Shown: one piece after another, positions 23,299-30,978 of the stretch
Numbering within the stretch: position 1 is the first letter of the stretch
Layout: the number at the start of each line of letters is the position of its first letter
Source of the DNA: Pseudoalteromonas sp. MM1
Lineage (GTDB): Bacteria; Pseudomonadota; Gammaproteobacteria; Enterobacterales; Alteromonadaceae
Assembly: GCF_030296835.1 (NCBI RefSeq)
Contig: NZ_AP027923.1
Coordinates: forward strand, 310,001 to 374,000
DNA: 64,000 bases
Direction of reading: 5' to 3'
Made by a program: the position numbers and the translations under genes
The notes under the pieces: generated by a model
Database searches by the model: none
Told to the model about the DNA's origin: nothing
Seen by the model: the letters and a program-made list of their open reading frames with translations, nothing else

Positions 23299-23326
23299 AA
23301 AAAGCGAGTCTTAGCACTCGCTTTTT
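23299..23326. terminator. Bidirectional terminator between the TetR gene and the HupE-like gene
   Basis: Perfect 11-bp stem AAAAAGCGAGT / ACTCGCTTTTT with a 6-nt loop between convergent genes. Confidence 0.88.
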
Positions 23327-23329
23327 GTA

Positions 23330-24433
23330 TTAAATTCGCTCTATACACCACATTAAAGCCATTGCGGCTATTGCAAGCGAACCTATGGGCATTATCCATT
23401 TTATGTAGGTAGGCTTATCTCGCACTATAAGTAACAGAGGTAGTGCTAGACACAAAATACTCAACTGTCCCAGTTCAACCCCTAAGTTAAATGCTAAAAT
23501 ACTCAATAGCTGATAATCACTCGATAACCCAAGCTCACCAAGCACACTGGCAAAGCCCATACCGTGTAATAAACCAAATGCAAAAGTTAGCCAGCCAAGG
23601 CGCAATATAACTGGCCATACGTTATTTAAAGCTGCAAATAATACTGAAATTGCAATACCAAGCTCTACCCAGCGGCTATTTGGCGACACCATATTAAGCG
23701 CTGTCGCTGTTAAAGTAAGTGAATGGGCGAGGGTAAATGCCGTTACAATCCAGGCTGTGTGCTTAATTATTTGTTTTTTAGAGGCGATTGCCTGCCATTG
23801 TTTGTTAGTGCGATACAATACACAGGTTAAAAGTAAGGCAATTAAAAATAAAATATGGTCAACACCAATCCAAATATGTAATACACCTTGATAAACATAT
23901 TGGTTAAATGTACTTAGGTAACTTGCTTGTTGTGTAGAAAACGCCTGTTGTTGCTCAGCTTTGGTAAATACGCGCGATACTTGGTTTACGTTAACAATCA
24001 CCTTGTGATTAGCATCGTACTCAAAAAAAGCACTGTAGTTAAGGGTGATATCGGCATTATTGGCGCAACTAAATAGCAGCGGTAAAACTAAATAAGCCTC
24101 ATTAAAATGGTTATCTAATTGGTAGTTATCAGCAATTGTTAGCGGGCAAGTTTGCAAGTTTTGTAAAACAGTAAAATTAGATTTTGCATAGCGATTAATG
24201 GCTTCGTTTTGTGACTTAAGTTCGGCCCAGCTTATTTGTTGGTCTTGGTTTAAATCAAGCGCAACGCTTTGTTCTAAATCGTTAATATTTATTTGCCATG
24301 TACCTGTATATTGCTGCGGATTTTGCGCGTTATCTAAAGTGATGTAACTGGTACTTAGTTGGTGTGCATGGGCACTAAAAGTGCAAATTAGTGTAACAAG
24401 TAAAGCGGTTAAAAAAGAGCTTAATGTTTTCAT
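23330..24433 (-). CDS. HupE/UreJ_2-family membrane protein
   Basis: A 367-residue protein: signal peptide (1-23), a periplasmic domain to about residue 180 with an EF-hand-like DLNQDQQISWAEL segment, and a C-terminal half of six or more helices with HupE/UreJ motifs GVDHILFLIALLL, TLAHSLTL, GLLHGMGFA and NLGVELGQ. The His-rich membrane motifs suggest metal handling (relatives are linked to nickel/cobalt or hydrogenase), but this is inferred and no hydrogenase or urease genes are nearby. It overlaps the TPR gene by 4 bp and is the last gene of a four-gene operon. Confidence 0.85.
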   Translation of the reverse strand: MKTLSSFLTALLVTLICTFSAHAHQLSTSYITLDNAQNPQQYTGTWQININDLEQSVALDLNQDQQISWAELKSQNEAINRYAKSNFTVLQNLQTCPLTIADNYQLDNHFNEAYLVLPLLFSCANNADITLNYSAFFEYDANHKVIVNVNQVSRVFTKAEQQQAFSTQQASYLSTFNQYVYQGVLHIWIGVDHILFLIALLLTCVLYRTNKQWQAIASKKQIIKHTAWIVTAFTLAHSLTLTATALNMVSPNSRWVELGIAISVLFAALNNVWPVILRLGWLTFAFGLLHGMGFASVLGELGLSSDYQLLSILAFNLGVELGQLSILCLALPLLLIVRDKPTYIKWIMPIGSLAIAAMALMWCIERI

Positions 24434-25458
24434 AAGGTGTCCCTAGCCATGGCATTAGCTTGGTGTAATAGGTGTTGATCTGTGCTCATTTTTGCTTGCT
24501 GCCAATTTATATTTGCCCAATATTGTGCCTTGGCTTTATCTACTTGTACATGAATATAATAGTTAGCTAAATCATTGGCATGAAAAGTATCTTGTCGTTG
24601 TTCTCGTAAGTTAACTCGTTGCTGCATACGTGTTTGCCACTGATCACTAACTTTATGTGTGCTGCGTTTTTCAGCTATGGCGAGCCGAAGTAAAACAGCA
24701 TCTTCAAGTTGACTCTTTAAATTACTAAATTGACTCAAGGTATTAAGTACCTGCTCAGGGTTGTTTTGGCTTAGCTGTATATCAGCCCATAACACAATGA
24801 GGCTCACAGGTGCTTTGCTTAAATCAATACTGTTAATGTGCTCAAGCGCTTCGGTGAGCTTATTAAGCCTAAACGCCATCTCACTAAGTACCTGTTTGGT
24901 TGTTAAGCTTATGTTTTTATTTTGAGTAATATCAAGTAATGATTGATAGCTTTGCTGTAATTGACCTTGCTGACTTTGAATATCAAGCACACAGGTTGTT
25001 GCACTGATAACGCTTGCTGCACCAATAAGAGACACACAGTGTTGCTTGGCTTGTTCAAACTTACCTTGTGTCATCAACATATTTGCCAATAAAAGATGGG
25101 TGTTGACATGGCTTGGGTGTTTTTCTATTACAGTATTTGCAACTTTAATAGCGCGTGTAAATTGATGCTCTTTTTGTAACACTCTTGCATATAAATAGCC
25201 TATTTGTGCCGTGGGCTCTTGTTTATAAAGTGCAGCTAAGCGGTTTTTTAGCACGCCTTGATAACGCTCGGTTTGCCCTATGTATTGGCTGTTTAAAACC
25301 AAAGTGTTGAGTTGCTCTAGTGTTAAATTAGCGCTAATTGATGAATTACTGGTTGCAATAATATCGTCATCATTTGGAATCGTGGGCTTTGCAAGCACGT
25401 TACTTACAAACAGTGCAGCGCAAAAAGCAAAGAGCATTTTTTTATAATGACCGTGCAT
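24430..25458 (-). CDS. Secreted TPR-repeat protein
   Basis: A 342-residue protein with a signal peptide (cleavage about residue 23, after VLA) and tetratricopeptide repeats: AQIGYLYARVLQKEHQFTRAIKVANTVIEKHPSHVNTHLLLANMLMTQGKFEQA shows two adjacent units. TPRs bind other proteins, so it is a plausible scaffold for the neighbouring envelope proteins. AGAGG 8 nt upstream supports the ATG at 25458. The 4-bp overlap with the HupE-like gene ties the two together. Confidence 0.75.
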   Translation of the reverse strand: MHGHYKKMLFAFCAALFVSNVLAKPTIPNDDDIIATSNSSISANLTLEQLNTLVLNSQYIGQTERYQGVLKNRLAALYKQEPTAQIGYLYARVLQKEHQFTRAIKVANTVIEKHPSHVNTHLLLANMLMTQGKFEQAKQHCVSLIGAASVISATTCVLDIQSQQGQLQQSYQSLLDITQNKNISLTTKQVLSEMAFRLNKLTEALEHINSIDLSKAPVSLIVLWADIQLSQNNPEQVLNTLSQFSNLKSQLEDAVLLRLAIAEKRSTHKVSDQWQTRMQQRVNLREQRQDTFHANDLANYYIHVQVDKAKAQYWANINWQQAKMSTDQHLLHQANAMARDTL

Positions 25459-25508: not shown

Positions 25509-25548
25509 ATACCAATCCGCATAATTAAGTATTATTGCGGATTGGTAT
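25509..25548. repeat. 40-bp palindrome, solo ATACCAAT-type repeat
   Basis: A near-perfect palindrome, ATACCAATCCGC at one end and GCGGATTGGTAT at the other, between the lipoprotein and TPR genes. Its ends equal the ends of the 243-bp element at 54045. As RNA it would form a long hairpin inside the operon and could stop or stabilise transcripts. Confidence 0.8.
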
Positions 25549-25551
25549 CAA

Positions 25552-26055
25552 TTAGTTACCTGATGAAATAGTACTTACATCGGTATCTGTATTGGTAAAA
25601 ACACGTCCGTTGGTCGATAGTGGCTCATCGTTAGGGCTTTGATTAAATGCATCACTGGCAAATTGTGCAAAATCTACTTGCAAAGCCTCAATGGTAATAT
25701 CAACCATAGCTGTCACTTGCTGGTTTACCCCATCAGATACGCCAAACATAAAGCTGTCACTGCCTGTTGCTTCTTTATTGGGTGTATAGGTAAAGCTACC
25801 ATCACTATTAACTACTACATTGCCCAGTGTAGGCTCTGTTGTGAGTTCATAGGTGAGTGAGTCGCCATCGGCATCGGTAGCCACTAACATGTCGTTAATT
25901 TCAACTTCTGTTTGTGTGGTTAACATTACATCAGTTGCACTGGGGGCTGTATTTACCAACGGTGTAGGCAGTTTATTGTCATCATCGTTGCTACATGCGC
26001 TAAGCGTTAGTGCGCCAAGTAGTACACCGATATGAGTAAGAGTTAAATTACGCAT
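25552..26055 (-). CDS. Lipoprotein with a cadherin/VCBS-like (Big_9-type) domain
   Basis: A 167-residue lipoprotein (LTLSAC, Cys21; then an Asn/Asp-rich linker). Residues ~35-125 are one tandem-95/VCBS-like beta-sandwich: NTAPSATDVMLTT, DADGDSLTYELTTEPTLGNVVVNSDGSFTYTPN and GSDSFMFGVSDG, with DADGD as a likely calcium site. The last ~40 residues are Asp/Asn/Ser rich. It starts 10 bp after the DUF4331 gene and likely sits on the outer membrane as its partner; that partnership is inferred from position. Confidence 0.75.
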   Translation of the reverse strand: MRNLTLTHIGVLLGALTLSACSNDDDNKLPTPLVNTAPSATDVMLTTQTEVEINDMLVATDADGDSLTYELTTEPTLGNVVVNSDGSFTYTPNKEATGSDSFMFGVSDGVNQQVTAMVDITIEALQVDFAQFASDAFNQSPNDEPLSTNGRVFTNTDTDVSTISSGN

Positions 26056-26065
26056 ACGTTACTCC

Positions 26066-27658
26066 TTATTTAGACCCTGCAAGTGGGGTGGCTAAGTATG
26101 GGAAAGCGGCATCCATCATGCTTGCATCAACTGGCGCACCATCAGTGAATGGCACTGTACCTACATCAGCATCTTCTGGCGTACACAGGCCTAAGTCGGT
26201 GTCTTCACCATTTACTGGAATAGGGTGACACAAACGGCCCATTACTACGCGAAGTGCAATATCTACTACATCATCACCTGGGCGACGGCCATTTGGAAAG
26301 CCCGCTAAATCATCACCAGCAACACCAAATGCAGATTGATCAGCCTGGGCTGTGGCTGCAATTGCGGTATTTAAACGTAACATTTCTGAAGGCGTTACCG
26401 TTGCTTGTTGGTTTACTCCAGCAAAACCGGTTAAAAATGCAGTAATTAAATCTGTGCGCGGAAAATTAGTAGGTGCTAGTGTTTCCAGTTCAGCGCCTAA
26501 TGTAGTATTTACTGCATCTTTGAATAAAATATTTAATAGTTCCGGTAAAGAAGGGTGCGAAACATAATCTAAAAATTGTGCATCGTCTTTTGGCTGAGCC
26601 GTTGAGAAGGTATCTTTGTCTTTAATACCAATAACAAGCTCATTAACCAATGGGTTACCTAAGCGAGAAACCTGTGTTAATGCACCGCCATTTACCGCGT
26701 TATCTGCAAACTTAGCGTTAGGATTTAGAATGCGTGCTTGAGGTAGGCTCGCTGTAGTCCATGAGCCAATTACGCCGTTGCCTTCACCCACAATACAGCT
26801 TTTAGGCATTTCAACGGCGATTGAGGTTACGTTTTTATCAATGAGGTCATCATTATCGGCAGATTGCGTAATACCACCAGGGAAACCACCGCCATCGCCC
26901 GCACCAGGTGCACTGTCGCCCTCTACAGGCACATAGTTTACTAGATCAAAGGTTTTACCTAAGTTAACAACGAATGGGTCTTTACGTTGACCTACAAATA
27001 CTTTGGCCATACTGTCACAGCCCGGTACAGAAACTTGGTAAACAAACTGATCGGCATAAGTTTGGTAATCTGCCATTGAACCAAATGTTTTATCGCCTAC
27101 GTAGTCCAGTGGTTTATTAAACGTGGTTGAGCTGGTGGTGGTATTGCTTAATGTGGTACTGGTACCTGTGCGTTGTGGGCCGTTAATCATGCTTAGTGTA
27201 TATGACTCACTAAAATTTGCAGCGCTATCATCACCTGCTGCAACGCCACCTACATTTTTAAGGGGGACAGATACAGTGCGTTGATTACCTTCTGGGCCAA
27301 CAGTTAATTGCACCCCTTGGTTATCGTTAGGGAGCATGCTCTTGAAGTTAAACGCAAAGGTAATATCCTCAACAGCGTCACCATCATTATCAATATGAAT
27401 ACTGTAAGTTGCGTCAGGGTCCATGGCAAAATAGTTTGGGCCGCCGTAGGCATCTTGTAATGGAATGTAATTGGCAATAAACGTAACGTAATCGTCTCTG
27501 CCTGCCTCATAACTATTAAATACATAAAAGTCGGTAGAGTCTAAAGTTGGAAAGCGGCTAATATTTGGCGCTTCACGGTGACTTGATGCCTCGCTAGAGG
27601 TGCTTACTAAGGTACTGCATACTACTACTGCGAGTATAGATGGAGTTAAAGCTTTCAT
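26066..27658 (-). CDS. DUF4331-family secreted protein
   Basis: A 530-residue protein with a signal peptide (about 1-24). It opens with ASSHREAPNISRFPTLDSTDFYVFNSY, the diagnostic DUF4331 start, and continues with DPDATYSIHIDNDGDAVEDITFAFNF. The family has no established function. It has its own promoter matching the one before the ECF sigma gene (27697-27723) and heads a four-gene operon. The SD is AAGGAAAAAGTC before the ATG. Its conserved SHREAP motif and Asp-rich stretches could bind metal, but this is a guess. Confidence 0.88.
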   Translation of the reverse strand: MKALTPSILAVVVCSTLVSTSSEASSHREAPNISRFPTLDSTDFYVFNSYEAGRDDYVTFIANYIPLQDAYGGPNYFAMDPDATYSIHIDNDGDAVEDITFAFNFKSMLPNDNQGVQLTVGPEGNQRTVSVPLKNVGGVAAGDDSAANFSESYTLSMINGPQRTGTSTTLSNTTTSSTTFNKPLDYVGDKTFGSMADYQTYADQFVYQVSVPGCDSMAKVFVGQRKDPFVVNLGKTFDLVNYVPVEGDSAPGAGDGGGFPGGITQSADNDDLIDKNVTSIAVEMPKSCIVGEGNGVIGSWTTASLPQARILNPNAKFADNAVNGGALTQVSRLGNPLVNELVIGIKDKDTFSTAQPKDDAQFLDYVSHPSLPELLNILFKDAVNTTLGAELETLAPTNFPRTDLITAFLTGFAGVNQQATVTPSEMLRLNTAIAATAQADQSAFGVAGDDLAGFPNGRRPGDDVVDIALRVVMGRLCHPIPVNGEDTDLGLCTPEDADVGTVPFTDGAPVDASMMDAAFPYLATPLAGSK

Positions 27659-27696: not shown

Positions 27697-27723
27697 AACG
27701 AAGCAAAAAGCACAATGGATGCA
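27697..27723 (-). promoter_or_regulatory. ECF-type promoter of the DUF4331 operon
   Basis: On the minus strand: TGCATCCA (27723-27716), 15 bases, then CGTT (27700-27697), 39 bases before the DUF4331 ATG. The same two blocks with the same spacing precede the ECF sigma gene (29054-29080). Confidence 0.75.
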
Positions 27724-27763
27724 AAAAAGTTAAAAAATTTTATTTTTTGTTAAATTAAATAAT

Positions 27764-27800
27764 AAAAGAGGAGGCTAATGCGCGATTAGCCTCCTCTTTT
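27764..27800 (-). terminator. Terminator after the anti-sigma gene
   Basis: A 15-bp perfect stem (arms 27764-27778 and 27786-27800, reading AAAAGAGGAGGCTAA) with a 7-nt loop, 17 bp after the anti-sigma stop. It separates the sigma/anti-sigma unit from the DUF4331 operon. Confidence 0.92.
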
Positions 27801-27816
27801 TTTCGCGTGCAAAAAG

Positions 27817-28500
27817 CTATAAAATAACTAGCTCAGTGGTATAAAGTACCTCAGTTGGTGAGCCATTAGGTGAGCCACCGAGTGGCTCTAAACTTACTGC
27901 AAGTAAGGCAATGTTTTGCGCATTAAAGCGTGTGTCTTTTATTAATAGTTTTTCACCTTGTTTAGGCAATAAGCCCAGCGAAATAGGTGCATCTTGTCCT
28001 TTTAAAATCATCCATAGCTCGTAGTCTTTATCTGTTTGAGCAACTAATTTAGTGCTGGCTTTAACTGATAATACTTGCTCGTTCACATTAATAAACCACA
28101 GTGATTGTTTATTTTGGTTTTGTACCAGCGCAATTTGCTGGCTATCTTGGAGTTGTGTGGTTGGCTGAATAATTAAAAATGCTAAAATAATACAGGCCGC
28201 TGTGGCTATAAATGACCAAGTACGCCATAACGATGGAGCCGGTTTTATGACTGTTTTAGCTTGCGGTGAGTTGTTTTCTATTTTATCTAAAATGTGTTGC
28301 CATACATGAGCGCTGGGTGCTTGTGGTGTAATTGCACTGGCTAAGTCATTTAAATTTTGCTCCCACATAACGGTAGCTTCGCGCGCTTGTGGTAGGCTCA
28401 ACATTAAACGCTGAAAACGCTTTCGGGCAAGCCCCTTTAATGTGCCTAGCACATATTGAGCCGCTAAAGTCTCTAGTAGTTCTGGTTTGTTATAATTCAT
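27817..28500 (-). CDS. RskA-type anti-sigma factor
   Basis: A 227-residue single-pass membrane protein. An N-terminal cytoplasmic sigma-binding region (LLETLAAQYVLGTLKGLARKRFQRLM) precedes one membrane helix (~residues 88-106, WSFIATAACIILAFLII) and a periplasmic RskA-like domain (QDSQQIALVQNQNKQSLWFINVN; DYELWMILKGQDAPISLGLLPK). I choose the ATG at 28500, whose ATGA overlaps the sigma stop; a GTG at 28512 is in frame but its SD would overlap the codon. It should hold the ECF sigma at the membrane until a signal inactivates it. Confidence 0.85.
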   Translation of the reverse strand: MNYNKPELLETLAAQYVLGTLKGLARKRFQRLMLSLPQAREATVMWEQNLNDLASAITPQAPSAHVWQHILDKIENNSPQAKTVIKPAPSLWRTWSFIATAACIILAFLIIQPTTQLQDSQQIALVQNQNKQSLWFINVNEQVLSVKASTKLVAQTDKDYELWMILKGQDAPISLGLLPKQGEKLLIKDTRFNAQNIALLAVSLEPLGGSPNGSPTEVLYTTELVIL

Positions 28501-29021
28501 AACGTTAAACACCTCTGCAACTGCTGTAACCCACGCCTGATCCAGCTTTTAACCGTACCTAAGGGCGTTTCTATGTAATTGACTAGTTCACCATGGCTCA
28601 AGCCCTTGTAATAGGCTAAATGTATGGCTTGTTTTTGCTGTGGATCGAGTTGTTCAATACAATCAACGAGTTTGGTTTGTTCGTCGTAACTAACATCGAC
28701 TGCTTGTTCATCGTATTGCTCATCGCCCATGGCTTGTTCTTTTCTGACCTTATGATAGCGCAGCGCATCTAAACATCTGTATCGTACTATGCTTATCATC
28801 CAGCTTATTACAGTGCCTTTTGTGGAATTGTACTCAGATGCGTTATGCCAAATTTTAATAAATGCCTCTTGCAATACTTCTTCTGCGTGAGCTCGGTTTG
28901 AAAGCATATTCAAACTAATCGCAAATAATTTACCACTGGTTTGCTGATATAAATCGGCAAAAGCGGTTTTGTTACCCTGTGCAGTTTTACACAAAAGGGG
29001 GAGTAAATTATCGTTTTCCAT
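28497..29021 (-). CDS. ECF sigma factor (SigK-like, RskA-associated)
   Basis: A 174-residue ECF sigma-70. Region 2 is visible in FADLYQQTSGKLFAISLNMLSNRAHAEEVLQEAFIKIWHNA and the region 4 helix-turn-helix in QAIHLAYYKGLSHGELVNYIETPLGTVKSWIRRGLQQL. An upstream in-frame frame runs to 29081, but the ATG at 29021 has an AGGA 5 nt upstream and starts the domain properly. It overlaps the anti-sigma gene by 4 bp. The same promoter sequence appears before its own gene and the DUF4331 gene, predicting autoregulation. Confidence 0.9.
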   Translation of the reverse strand: MENDNLLPLLCKTAQGNKTAFADLYQQTSGKLFAISLNMLSNRAHAEEVLQEAFIKIWHNASEYNSTKGTVISWMISIVRYRCLDALRYHKVRKEQAMGDEQYDEQAVDVSYDEQTKLVDCIEQLDPQQKQAIHLAYYKGLSHGELVNYIETPLGTVKSWIRRGLQQLQRCLTL

Positions 29022-29053
29022 ATGGGTCCTGTTGTTTTTATTATTACTGATTA

Positions 29054-29080
29054 AACGTTTAAGGGCGGGAATTGGATGCA
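29054..29080 (-). promoter_or_regulatory. ECF-type promoter of the sigma/anti-sigma operon
   Basis: On the minus strand: TGCATCCA (29080-29073), 15 bases, then CGTT (29057-29054), 33 bases before the sigma ATG. Blocks and spacing are identical to those before DUF4331. Confidence 0.75.
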
Positions 29081-29358
29081 CACTTTATAGCTGACTTTTC
29101 ATATTAGCTGTTATGCGCATCTAAACAAGTTTTAATCCTAAATAATGCATTTTAATGATGAGAAAAAATGACCGACTTAAATGTAAAAAGCACATATTAG
29201 TTAATTAACTTAGAAAGGCGTAAATTATAGTACTTAATAATCAGTTGGTTACAATAATTACCGGGCTTTAAATTCGTGTTTTATTGGCGTATAAATTGCA
29301 ACTACACTTGCACAAGGCTGTTAAAAAACATAAAAACAGTAAATACAAAGGGGAATTT

Positions 29359-30978
29359 ATGTGGGCTGCAACGAGTTATTTAATTTTAGCGTTAATTTTT
29401 ATATTGATAGGCTGGGAGGTTAACTCGGTTTATTTTGCCGTGGTATTTTATTGGAGTGCACTGTCGTTAATACTTGTTAGTGGTGCATATATTTTTAATT
29501 TAGCGAAAATTTTTAGAAAGCGCGAAAATGGTGTCATCCCATTTTATATTCGCTGGGCATTTGTACCTTTTTTATTGGGGGTGCAAATTTACAATGCGTA
29601 TTCTCGAAAGCACGATAAAGTCCCTCCGATTCAAAAAGTTAACGAGCATTTGTTTTTAGCATGCAGATTATTCCCCTCCGATATTGATACGTTAAAAGAA
29701 AACGGGATAACAGCAATTTTAGATGTTACGTGTGAGTTTGATGGTTTAGAGTGGAGCTCTACACAAGAAAATATTAGCTACTTAAATATTCCAGTGCTTG
29801 ATCATAGTGTGCCTACGCATTCGCAGTTAAATCAAGCAATAAATTGGATCCATCATCACATAAAAGAAGACCGCCGCGTGGTAGTTCATTGTGCACTAGG
29901 AAGAGGGCGCTCTGTATTTGTAATGGCAGCGTATTTATTGAGCCAAAATAAAAACGCCGATGTTCACCAAGTGCTCGCGCAAATAAAAGAAACCCGCGAA
30001 ACCGCAAATCTTAATAAGCATCAGCTTCGTCATTTAGCAAAGCGACATAAAAAGGGCGAGCTGGTTATTAAAAACAAAGCTGTATTAATAGCCAATCCTG
30101 TGTCGGGTACCAAAATGTGGCAAGACAAAGAGCATTTAATAGTGGCTAGGTTGTCGGCGTATTATGATTTAGAAGTATTAACCACCACCAAAGAAATAAA
30201 CGGTATTGAGCTTGCTAAACAAGCCATTAACGATAAGCCAGATATAATTATTGCCTGTGGTGGCGATGGAACCGTGACAGAAGTAGCAAGTGTGTTGGTA
30301 AACACCCAGTGTAAACTGGGCATTATACCAATGGGCACAGCCAATGCTTTAGCTCATGTGCTTATGGGGATTAGATCTAAAATAATTCCTGTTGAACAGG
30401 CCTGCGATTTAATTATTGATGGTCAAACTCACACAATAGATACCGCGTATTGTAACGATGAGCTAATGCTGTTGTTAGCTGGTATTGGTTATGAGCAATC
30501 GATGATAGAAAAAGCGGATAGAGAGGCTAAAAATAAATCTGGGCAACTTGCGTATTTAAACGGTTTTTTTCAGGCATTTAGTGAGCAAAAAGCGCAAACG
30601 CTTTATGTCACTCTTGACGATAACCAAACACAAGAGGTGCATACCAATAGCTTTATAGTTGCTAATGCGGCTCCGTTTACTACACTACTAGCGCAAGGGG
30701 GAGGGCAACCCAATCACGAAGATGGTCTGCTAGACATAAATTGGCTGGTACCAAGTGAAGAAAATACAACCAGCGTGCTTAGCATTGCCGAGCTAATGTT
30801 TAGCAGTATTACTCAAACCCAATTGGCAATTAGCTCGCATCATACAAATGCTAAAAGAGTAACCATTACGGCAGATGATGACATAAAGTACGTGCTAGAT
30901 GGTGAGGTAAAAACAGCTAAAACACTGGTTATTAACATAGACCCAGGCGCGCTAAAGGTTATTAGCAAAGAGCTGTAA
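29359..30978 (+). CDS. Fusion: membrane region + dual-specificity phosphatase + YegS/DAGK-type lipid kinase
   Basis: A 539-residue three-part protein. Residues 1-80 hold two to three membrane helices. Residues ~95-230 form a dual-specificity/tyrosine phosphatase with the HCxxxxxR loop HCALGRGRS (Cys178, Arg184) and a plausible general-acid Asp in VLDHS. Residues ~240-539 are a diacylglycerol/sphingosine-kinase-type lipid kinase with PVSGTK, the GGDGT nucleotide motif (301-305) and PMGTANALA. I choose the ATG at 29359 (AAGGGG 6 nt upstream); a TTG at 29284 is in frame but poorly supported. It may couple phospholipid or phosphoinositide turnover at the inner membrane. Confidence 0.88.
   Translation: MWAATSYLILALIFILIGWEVNSVYFAVVFYWSALSLILVSGAYIFNLAKIFRKRENGVIPFYIRWAFVPFLLGVQIYNAYSRKHDKVPPIQKVNEHLFLACRLFPSDIDTLKENGITAILDVTCEFDGLEWSSTQENISYLNIPVLDHSVPTHSQLNQAINWIHHHIKEDRRVVVHCALGRGRSVFVMAAYLLSQNKNADVHQVLAQIKETRETANLNKHQLRHLAKRHKKGELVIKNKAVLIANPVSGTKMWQDKEHLIVARLSAYYDLEVLTTTKEINGIELAKQAINDKPDIIIACGGDGTVTEVASVLVNTQCKLGIIPMGTANALAHVLMGIRSKIIPVEQACDLIIDGQTHTIDTAYCNDELMLLLAGIGYEQSMIEKADREAKNKSGQLAYLNGFFQAFSEQKAQTLYVTLDDNQTQEVHTNSFIVANAAPFTTLLAQGGGQPNHEDGLLDINWLVPSEENTTSVLSIAELMFSSITQTQLAISSHHTNAKRVTITADDDIKYVLDGEVKTAKTLVINIDPGALKVISKEL

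Follow-up and report, generated by a model that had tools for sequence, protein, structure and literature searches.

The analyzed window, i.e., a stretch of 64,000 nucleotides of the Pseudoalteromonas sp. MM1 genome, carries on its minus strand two adjacent operons. The first is composed of a gene for an ECF sigma factor (positions 28497..29021, 174 aa; PF04542 and PF08281) and an adjoining gene for an RskA-type anti-sigma factor (27817..28500, 227 aa), whose start overlaps the stop codon of the sigma gene (ATGA). Regions 2 and 4 of the sigma protein scored above the Pfam cut-offs and TIGR02937 gave 80.7 bits (cut-off 42.9), which places the protein among ECF sigma factors. Its best solved relative is SigK of 4nqw (E-value 1.3e-27), followed by RpoE of 2q1z; the score obtained with the NCBIfam SigK model NF007228 (140.5 bits) lies under the cut-off of 226, and we therefore name the protein SigK-like, not SigK. 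Two of its cysteines, Cys121 and Cys171, align with two cysteines of 4nqw SigK and are, in both proteins, 50 residues apart. The anti-sigma factor was recognized by the RskA_C domain (PF10099, 71.1 bits over 29.4, E-value 1.4e-19) and has one hydrophobic segment (residues 91-117), while the NCBIfam anti-sigma model NF052375 was just missed (91.5 bits, cut-off 100). Divergently from the sigma gene, on the plus strand (29284-30978), lies a gene for a fusion of a dual-specificity phosphatase with a diacylglycerol-kinase/YegS-like domain.

The second operon starts with a gene for a DUF4331 protein (26066..27658, 530 aa; PF14224, E-value 1e-153), in which a signal-like N-terminus precedes the sequence Ser-Ser-His-Arg-Glu-Ala-Pro. 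It also encodes a Big_9/cadherin-like lipoprotein (25552..26055, 167 aa; PF17963) with a lipobox, LSAC, identified by eye, a TPR protein (24430..25458, 342 aa; TPR families) with a signal-like N-terminus by hydropathy, and a HupE/UreJ-2 permease (23330..24433; PF13795, E-value 2e-44) with an N-terminal DUF6702-like domain (PF20420, 28.7 bits over the cut-off of 24). Between the Big_9 and TPR genes (25509-25548, minus strand) an inverted repeat, ATACCAATCCGCA ... TGCGGATTGGTAT, was found by eye. A terminator scan indicated intrinsic-terminator-like hairpins after hupE (23299..23326, minus strand) and, with 16 pairs, after rskA (27764..27800, minus strand). Since the latter stands between the two operons, a separate promoter is expected for the DUF4331 operon; terminator-like sites number 6 in the region versus 6.8 in shuffles, and the post-rskA hairpin has the most pairs.

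Two identical promoter-like sites in the window

A putative promoter composed of a -35 element TGCATCCA, a 15-base spacer and a -10 element CGTT precedes the sigma-rskA operon (29054..29080, minus strand), and the same arrangement precedes the DUF4331 operon (27697..27723, minus strand). The first-pass annotation had reported this pattern before both genes, and both sites can indeed be read off the sequence. The distances of 33 and 39 bases to the start codons given there are differences of coordinates: 32 bases lie between the motif and the sigma ATG (29021) and 38 between the motif and the DUF4331 ATG (27658), the proximity itself being confirmed. No other exact match was found in the window, and a search of both strands for 12/12 sites ending with CGTT or CGTA again returned the two promoters only. 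With up to two mismatches there were 7 matches versus 5.4 expected, so that the two exact sites are the sole standouts among the window matches.

It should be considered whether one region was recently copied, in which case the promoters would be alike without any functional constraint. Two identical 12-base patterns lying 1.36 kb apart fit such an event. However, the 15-base spacers (ATTCCCGCCCTTAAA in the sigma promoter and TTGTGCTTTTTGCTT in the DUF4331 promoter, each between TGCATCCA and CGTT) differ, as do the flanks, and in a profile of 72 distinct sites most spacer columns are low in information and the motif columns nearly invariant, a contrast which best-match picking favours. The probability of a recent duplication is therefore close to nil.

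The consensus derived from 73 sites (the 72 distinct ones included) reads TTGCATCCAAT, 13 mostly poorly conserved bases and CGTW; because only the best match of each stretch entered it, this profile is biased to the motif columns. The -35 element and the spacing described in the first-pass annotation were retained, and its fixed final T had to be given up, because the last base of the -10 element is either T or A.

Conservation within Pseudoalteromonas and further targets

In the set of 60 Pseudoalteromonas genomes (the one analyzed here included), orthologs of the sigma factor with 54-100% identity were identified in 22, one of which (G019) also has a second sigma copy (44% identity) with different neighbours. 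Amongst the remaining 38 genomes, 35 encode only paralogs (24-34% identity) and three gave no match at an E-value of 1e-15. The best TGCATCCA-N(14-16)-CGT[TA] site upstream of each start codon was scored out of 12. Each of the 22 sigma promoters had the motif (14 with 12/12, eight with 11), and so had each of the 22 DUF4331 promoters (20 with 12/12, two with 11), while base-shuffled upstream stretches (60 shuffles each) gave a mean of about 8 and a maximum of 11/12. The spacer is 15 bases long in all 44 promoters, and its sequence drifts. The absence of the motif before orthologous sigma genes had been set beforehand as an observation that would speak against a common regulation, and the opposite was found.

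The gene order sigma-rskA-DUF4331-Big9-TPR-HupE is kept in all 15 named Pseudoalteromonas loci examined. DUF4331 occurs in the same 22 of 60 genomes as the sigma factor and was not found in any of the 38 sigma-less genomes of the genus; these counts ignore kinship and are not independent, as the 22 sigma-bearing genomes may form one clade. One of the 38, G042, gave a single match to the sigma promoter, which is a remnant promoter followed by approximately 45 sigma codons (L286:4799-4953). This locus looks like a deletion scar, the remainder of the cluster being gone.

The genome of the analyzed strain consists of two contigs, and the window is located on the smaller one. The genome-wide search proposed in the first-pass annotation yielded two further targets, both on the larger contig, whose orthologs keep the motif. 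The third exact match is situated 94 bases upstream of a gene for a 704-aa NHL-repeat (beta-propeller) lipoprotein, after dxs. This gene is present in 14 of the 60 genomes, all of them sigma-bearing, and an exact GCATCC-N16-CGTT site was found upstream in 14/14, including two loci (L178 and L179) where the site lies beyond the 420-base scan (best scores there 9 and 8) and was recovered by wider scans, and one locus (L183) cut by a contig end, for which the distance from site to start is meaningless. A match ending with CGTA lies 49 bases upstream of a TonB-dependent receptor gene, orthologs of which were identified in 15 of the 22 sigma-bearing genomes, each with the motif, and in one of the 38 sigma-less genomes (G013), where no motif was found upstream.

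Taken together, the conservation of the sites suggests that the sigma-rskA operon, the DUF4331 operon, the NHL lipoprotein gene and the TonB receptor gene very probably constitute a four-unit regulon of the SigK-like sigma factor. The original proposal that this factor drives its own operon and the DUF4331 operon is supported by promoter conservation and the joint absence of both genes, and its extent has to be enlarged from two operons to four transcription units.

The genome-wide counts have to be read with caution. In the genome of the analyzed strain the exact 11-base form TGCATCC-N16-CGTT gave three matches, the same number as the reversed pattern, and this count is therefore no proof of function. 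Allowing one mismatch, 25 matches were obtained versus 29 for the reversed pattern; 21 of the 22 one-mismatch sites lie inside stop-to-stop frames of at least 100 aa, and the remaining one is the TonB promoter. Exact GCATCCA-N15-CGTT sites numbered 74 in 21 sigma-bearing relatives (50 for the reversed control; 47 of the 74 are located at the four units and 27 remain) and 88 in the 38 sigma-less genomes (51 for the control), and thus the count alone proves nothing. The stricter form TGCATCC-N16-CGTATT performed better, with 15 matches in 22 genomes versus none for the control, and from their positions 13 of the 15 can be assigned to promoters of DUF4331 or TonB genes. As regards the genome-wide search suggested in the first-pass annotation, the count of the CGTT form is near the control, and the CGTATT form fares better. 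It is position and conservation, not the genome-wide count, that argue for a function of the motif, and the motif counts of the 21 sigma-bearing and 38 sigma-less genomes give no hint of a large hidden regulon.

Two other candidates were rejected. An exact motif in G010 precedes a gene (that of L152/L291) considered as a fifth target, for which five of six homologs are siteless (best scores 8-9); no Pfam family was found in the homolog from the analyzed strain. The site G031:C236 lies antisense within a reading frame which, judged by eye, we take to be that of isocitrate dehydrogenase.

The motif outside the genus

Searches for DUF4331 gave hits in 15 of 197 genomes at the level of the order (14 from other genera) and in 13 of 299 at the level of the phylum, seven of which were new. 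Of the resulting 21 loci outside Pseudoalteromonas, 14 have matches to both sigma and rskA and seven do not. Upstream of DUF4331, ten of the 14 loci score 11-12 with a spacer of 15; these ten span six families, including that of the analyzed strain. Three of the others score 10 (one, L265, with a spacer of 16) and one (L279) scores 9. Amongst the seven sigma-less loci, six score 7-8 and one, L284, scores 12 with a spacer of 15, its 12/12 site being located before DUF4331 at L284:7386 on the minus strand. The 12 kb examined at this locus gave a match to neither sigma nor TPR nor HupE, and the sigma factor may be encoded elsewhere in that genome. Five of the seven sigma-less loci come from one genus (g17) and lack the motif, while the sixth g17 genome (L258) has the sigma factor, rskA and both motifs. 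In two loci without a sigma gene (L262 and L263) a TonB receptor gene is divergent to DUF4331.

At L265 the only sigma match lies apart from rskA, and a 12/12 site precedes that sigma gene. No site scoring at least 10 was found immediately before sigma at L255, L257, L264, L279 and L280. The sigma genes of L255 and L280 could be transcribed from upstream genes: at L255 a TonB receptor gene with its own motif precedes sigma, and at L280 the genes follow each other on one strand in the order DUF4331-TPR-HupE-sigma-rskA-TonB, with an 11/12 site in front.

More distant relatives of the sigma factor were scanned by pattern at 31 non-Pseudoalteromonas loci (L071-L101, with L102-L135 lying outside this count), and GCATCC-N(14-18)-CGT was found just before sigma only in Leucothrix (L072); no motif was found before sigma in Colwellia (L071). 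In general, amongst sigma relatives with at most 44% identity in other genera, only a few have the motif before sigma. By eye, TGCATCTA-N15-CGTT was seen upstream of sigma in another Leucothrix locus (L073). There (L073:6995-9276, plus strand) a related sigma-rskA pair precedes a phytase-like (PF13449) gene whose start resembles that of a lipoprotein; here a similar promoter goes with another target.

Another activator or a different ECF sigma factor, e.g., a paralog, might recognize the motif, the neighbouring sigma gene being merely one of its targets. Paralogous ECF sigma factors are indeed encoded in 35 of the 38 sigma-less genomes of the genus as well as in the genome of the analyzed strain, and a TGATCCA-N15-CGTA-like element, GTGATCCA-N15-CGTA, lies about 150-240 bases before the paralogous gene in seven of the eight loci examined among many paralog matches (L026-L032). 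However, a C between TG and ATCC is missing from this element, the 38 sigma-less genomes yielded neither a DUF4331 nor an NHL gene, and their single TonB receptor ortholog is motif-less. Moreover, outside the genus the motif appears mostly to accompany a SigK-like sigma factor together with rskA. Recognition by another regulator is thus improbable, and we infer that the SigK-like sigma factor itself reads the motif.

It is also worth mentioning that two ECF systems of one cell may be separated by a single base, the C in TGCATCC. The TGATCCA-N15-CGTA element of the paralogs resembles the promoter of RpoE-ChrR. The system described here differs from RpoE-ChrR (ECF11) by the extra C in the -35 element (TGCATCC), by RskA in place of ChrR and by its targets.

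Predicted regulation and roles of the products

In the proposed model RskA, a single-span membrane protein by hydropathy, would hold the sigma factor until an envelope or redox signal is received. The freed sigma factor would then transcribe the sigma-rskA operon, and so regulate itself, as well as the DUF4331-lipoprotein-TPR-HupE operon and two genes of the other replicon, those for the NHL lipoprotein and the TonB receptor. That RskA inhibits the sigma factor, and that the cysteine pair makes the latter redox-responsive, is presumed. For the -35 element of SigK itself, CCATCC is said to be the sequence, for which a literature search showed no confirming paper.

The system shares with SigK-RskA of Mycobacterium tuberculosis the sigma-rskA pair, an anti-sigma factor of the RskA_C type and the two cysteines 50 residues apart, as well as a small autoregulated regulon of exported proteins, predicted here and described for SigK in the available part of PMC7509140. 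According to the same part of that source, SigK targets MPT70 and MPT83, whereas the predicted targets here are DUF4331, HupE, the NHL lipoprotein and the TonB receptor. As regards the ECF18 family (RpoT of Pseudomonas putida and Psyr_0362), the available part of PMC3597554 likewise describes proteobacterial sigma factors in an operon with an anti-sigma gene; however, the RpoT targets include the TtgGHI pump, and no such regulon or promoter motif appears in that part. An autoregulated ECF sigma factor with RskA is thus known in kind, and the promoter rule and the targets are new; no paper on this regulon was found in a search of the open literature that touched on metal transport only lightly. 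What began as a coincidence of two sites has thus grown into a predicted regulon of four units, whose promoter rule is sharp and holds in several families related to Pseudoalteromonas.

The products may form one envelope path capturing a transition metal, most likely Cu or Ni, a reading much less certain than the regulon itself. It is suggested by the presence of the TonB receptor and by the N-termini of HupE and DUF4331, which were predicted by pattern. The sequence SSHREAP is present in DUF4331 of all 43 loci and in 120 of 120 homologs among the matches listed, 115 of which have Ala immediately before it; the predicted cleavage would leave His as the third residue of the mature protein. A histidine in this position characterizes amino-terminal Cu/Ni sites (ATCUN-type, X-X-His). 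The profile of DUF4331 had no significant match among solved structures (best E-value 0.17), and neither DUF4331 nor PF14224 was found in a search through the main text of 5.39 million open papers.

In HupE a histidine directly follows the signal-like stretch in all 35 proteins found in 37 loci, as judged by pattern (33 with one pattern, two with a looser one) and not by a signal-peptide predictor, and an alignment of 30 sequences shows no variation at this His1 and at a second His. The available part of PMC12537917 gives the name anglerases to HupE proteins which start with a His and bind Cu2+ or Ni2+ through their N-terminal domain, and reports for the Ang-1 domain, which has an N-terminal His and is fused to HupE/UreJ-2, affinities of 74 nM (Cu2+) and 220 nM (Ni2+). 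A DUF6702 protein is presented there as a metal sequesterase with a Kd of 5.6 pM for Ni2+ and of a few nM for Co2+ and Cu2+. With these DUF6702 and Ang-1 proteins the permease encoded in the window shares the presence of an exported N-terminal domain, the predicted His after the signal peptide and the HupE/UreJ-2 fusion; it differs in that its domain was not matched to the solved domains described in that part of PMC12537917 and has an EF-hand-like stretch. DUF4331 is not mentioned in the main text of PMC12537917. The HupE N-terminal profile gave no known metal-capture protein in the set of solved structures searched, which may not include 9GCE, and the HupE of L280 gave no DUF6702 match.

In the metal-capture reading a transition metal would pass from the outer-membrane TonB receptor to the secreted DUF4331 protein with its X-X-His terminus and further to the inner-membrane HupE with its N-terminal His. 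The full reading, in which a redox-gated sigma factor runs a metal-capture line composed of the TonB receptor, the NHL lipoprotein, the X-X-His protein DUF4331 and an anglerase-like HupE, is put forward tentatively, as possible rather than probable. If true, secreted metal-binding proteins would gain a new class in DUF4331. The association of this uncharacterised family with HupE, a propeller lipoprotein and a receptor of the TonB-dependent type offers for it a first testable role, i.e., metal handling.

The regulon might instead constitute a response to oxidative or redox stress, in which oxidation is sensed by the two cysteines of the sigma factor and the envelope proteins serve repair or scavenging. 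Cys121 and Cys171, aligned with the two SigK cysteines, are present in all 22 sigma orthologs, the other cysteines being variable, and the corresponding SigK pair (Cys133/Cys183) is, according to the available part of PMC7509140, conserved by 94% of the members of ECF18 and 56% of those of ECF19, with less than 2% for other families. On the other hand, no recognisable redox enzyme was found among the six envelope products, and the HupE permease and the TonB receptor point to transport. A stress response in place of metal capture seems less likely than not. Nevertheless, the redox-stress and metal-capture readings are not mutually exclusive, and a redox role is a fair rival to metal capture.

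The N-terminal domain of HupE (about 24364-23870, minus strand), which gave merely weak, non-significant profile matches to calcium sensors, contains an EF-hand-like stretch, DLNQDQQISWAE (DxNxDGxITWxE), similar in most of the 30 aligned relatives.
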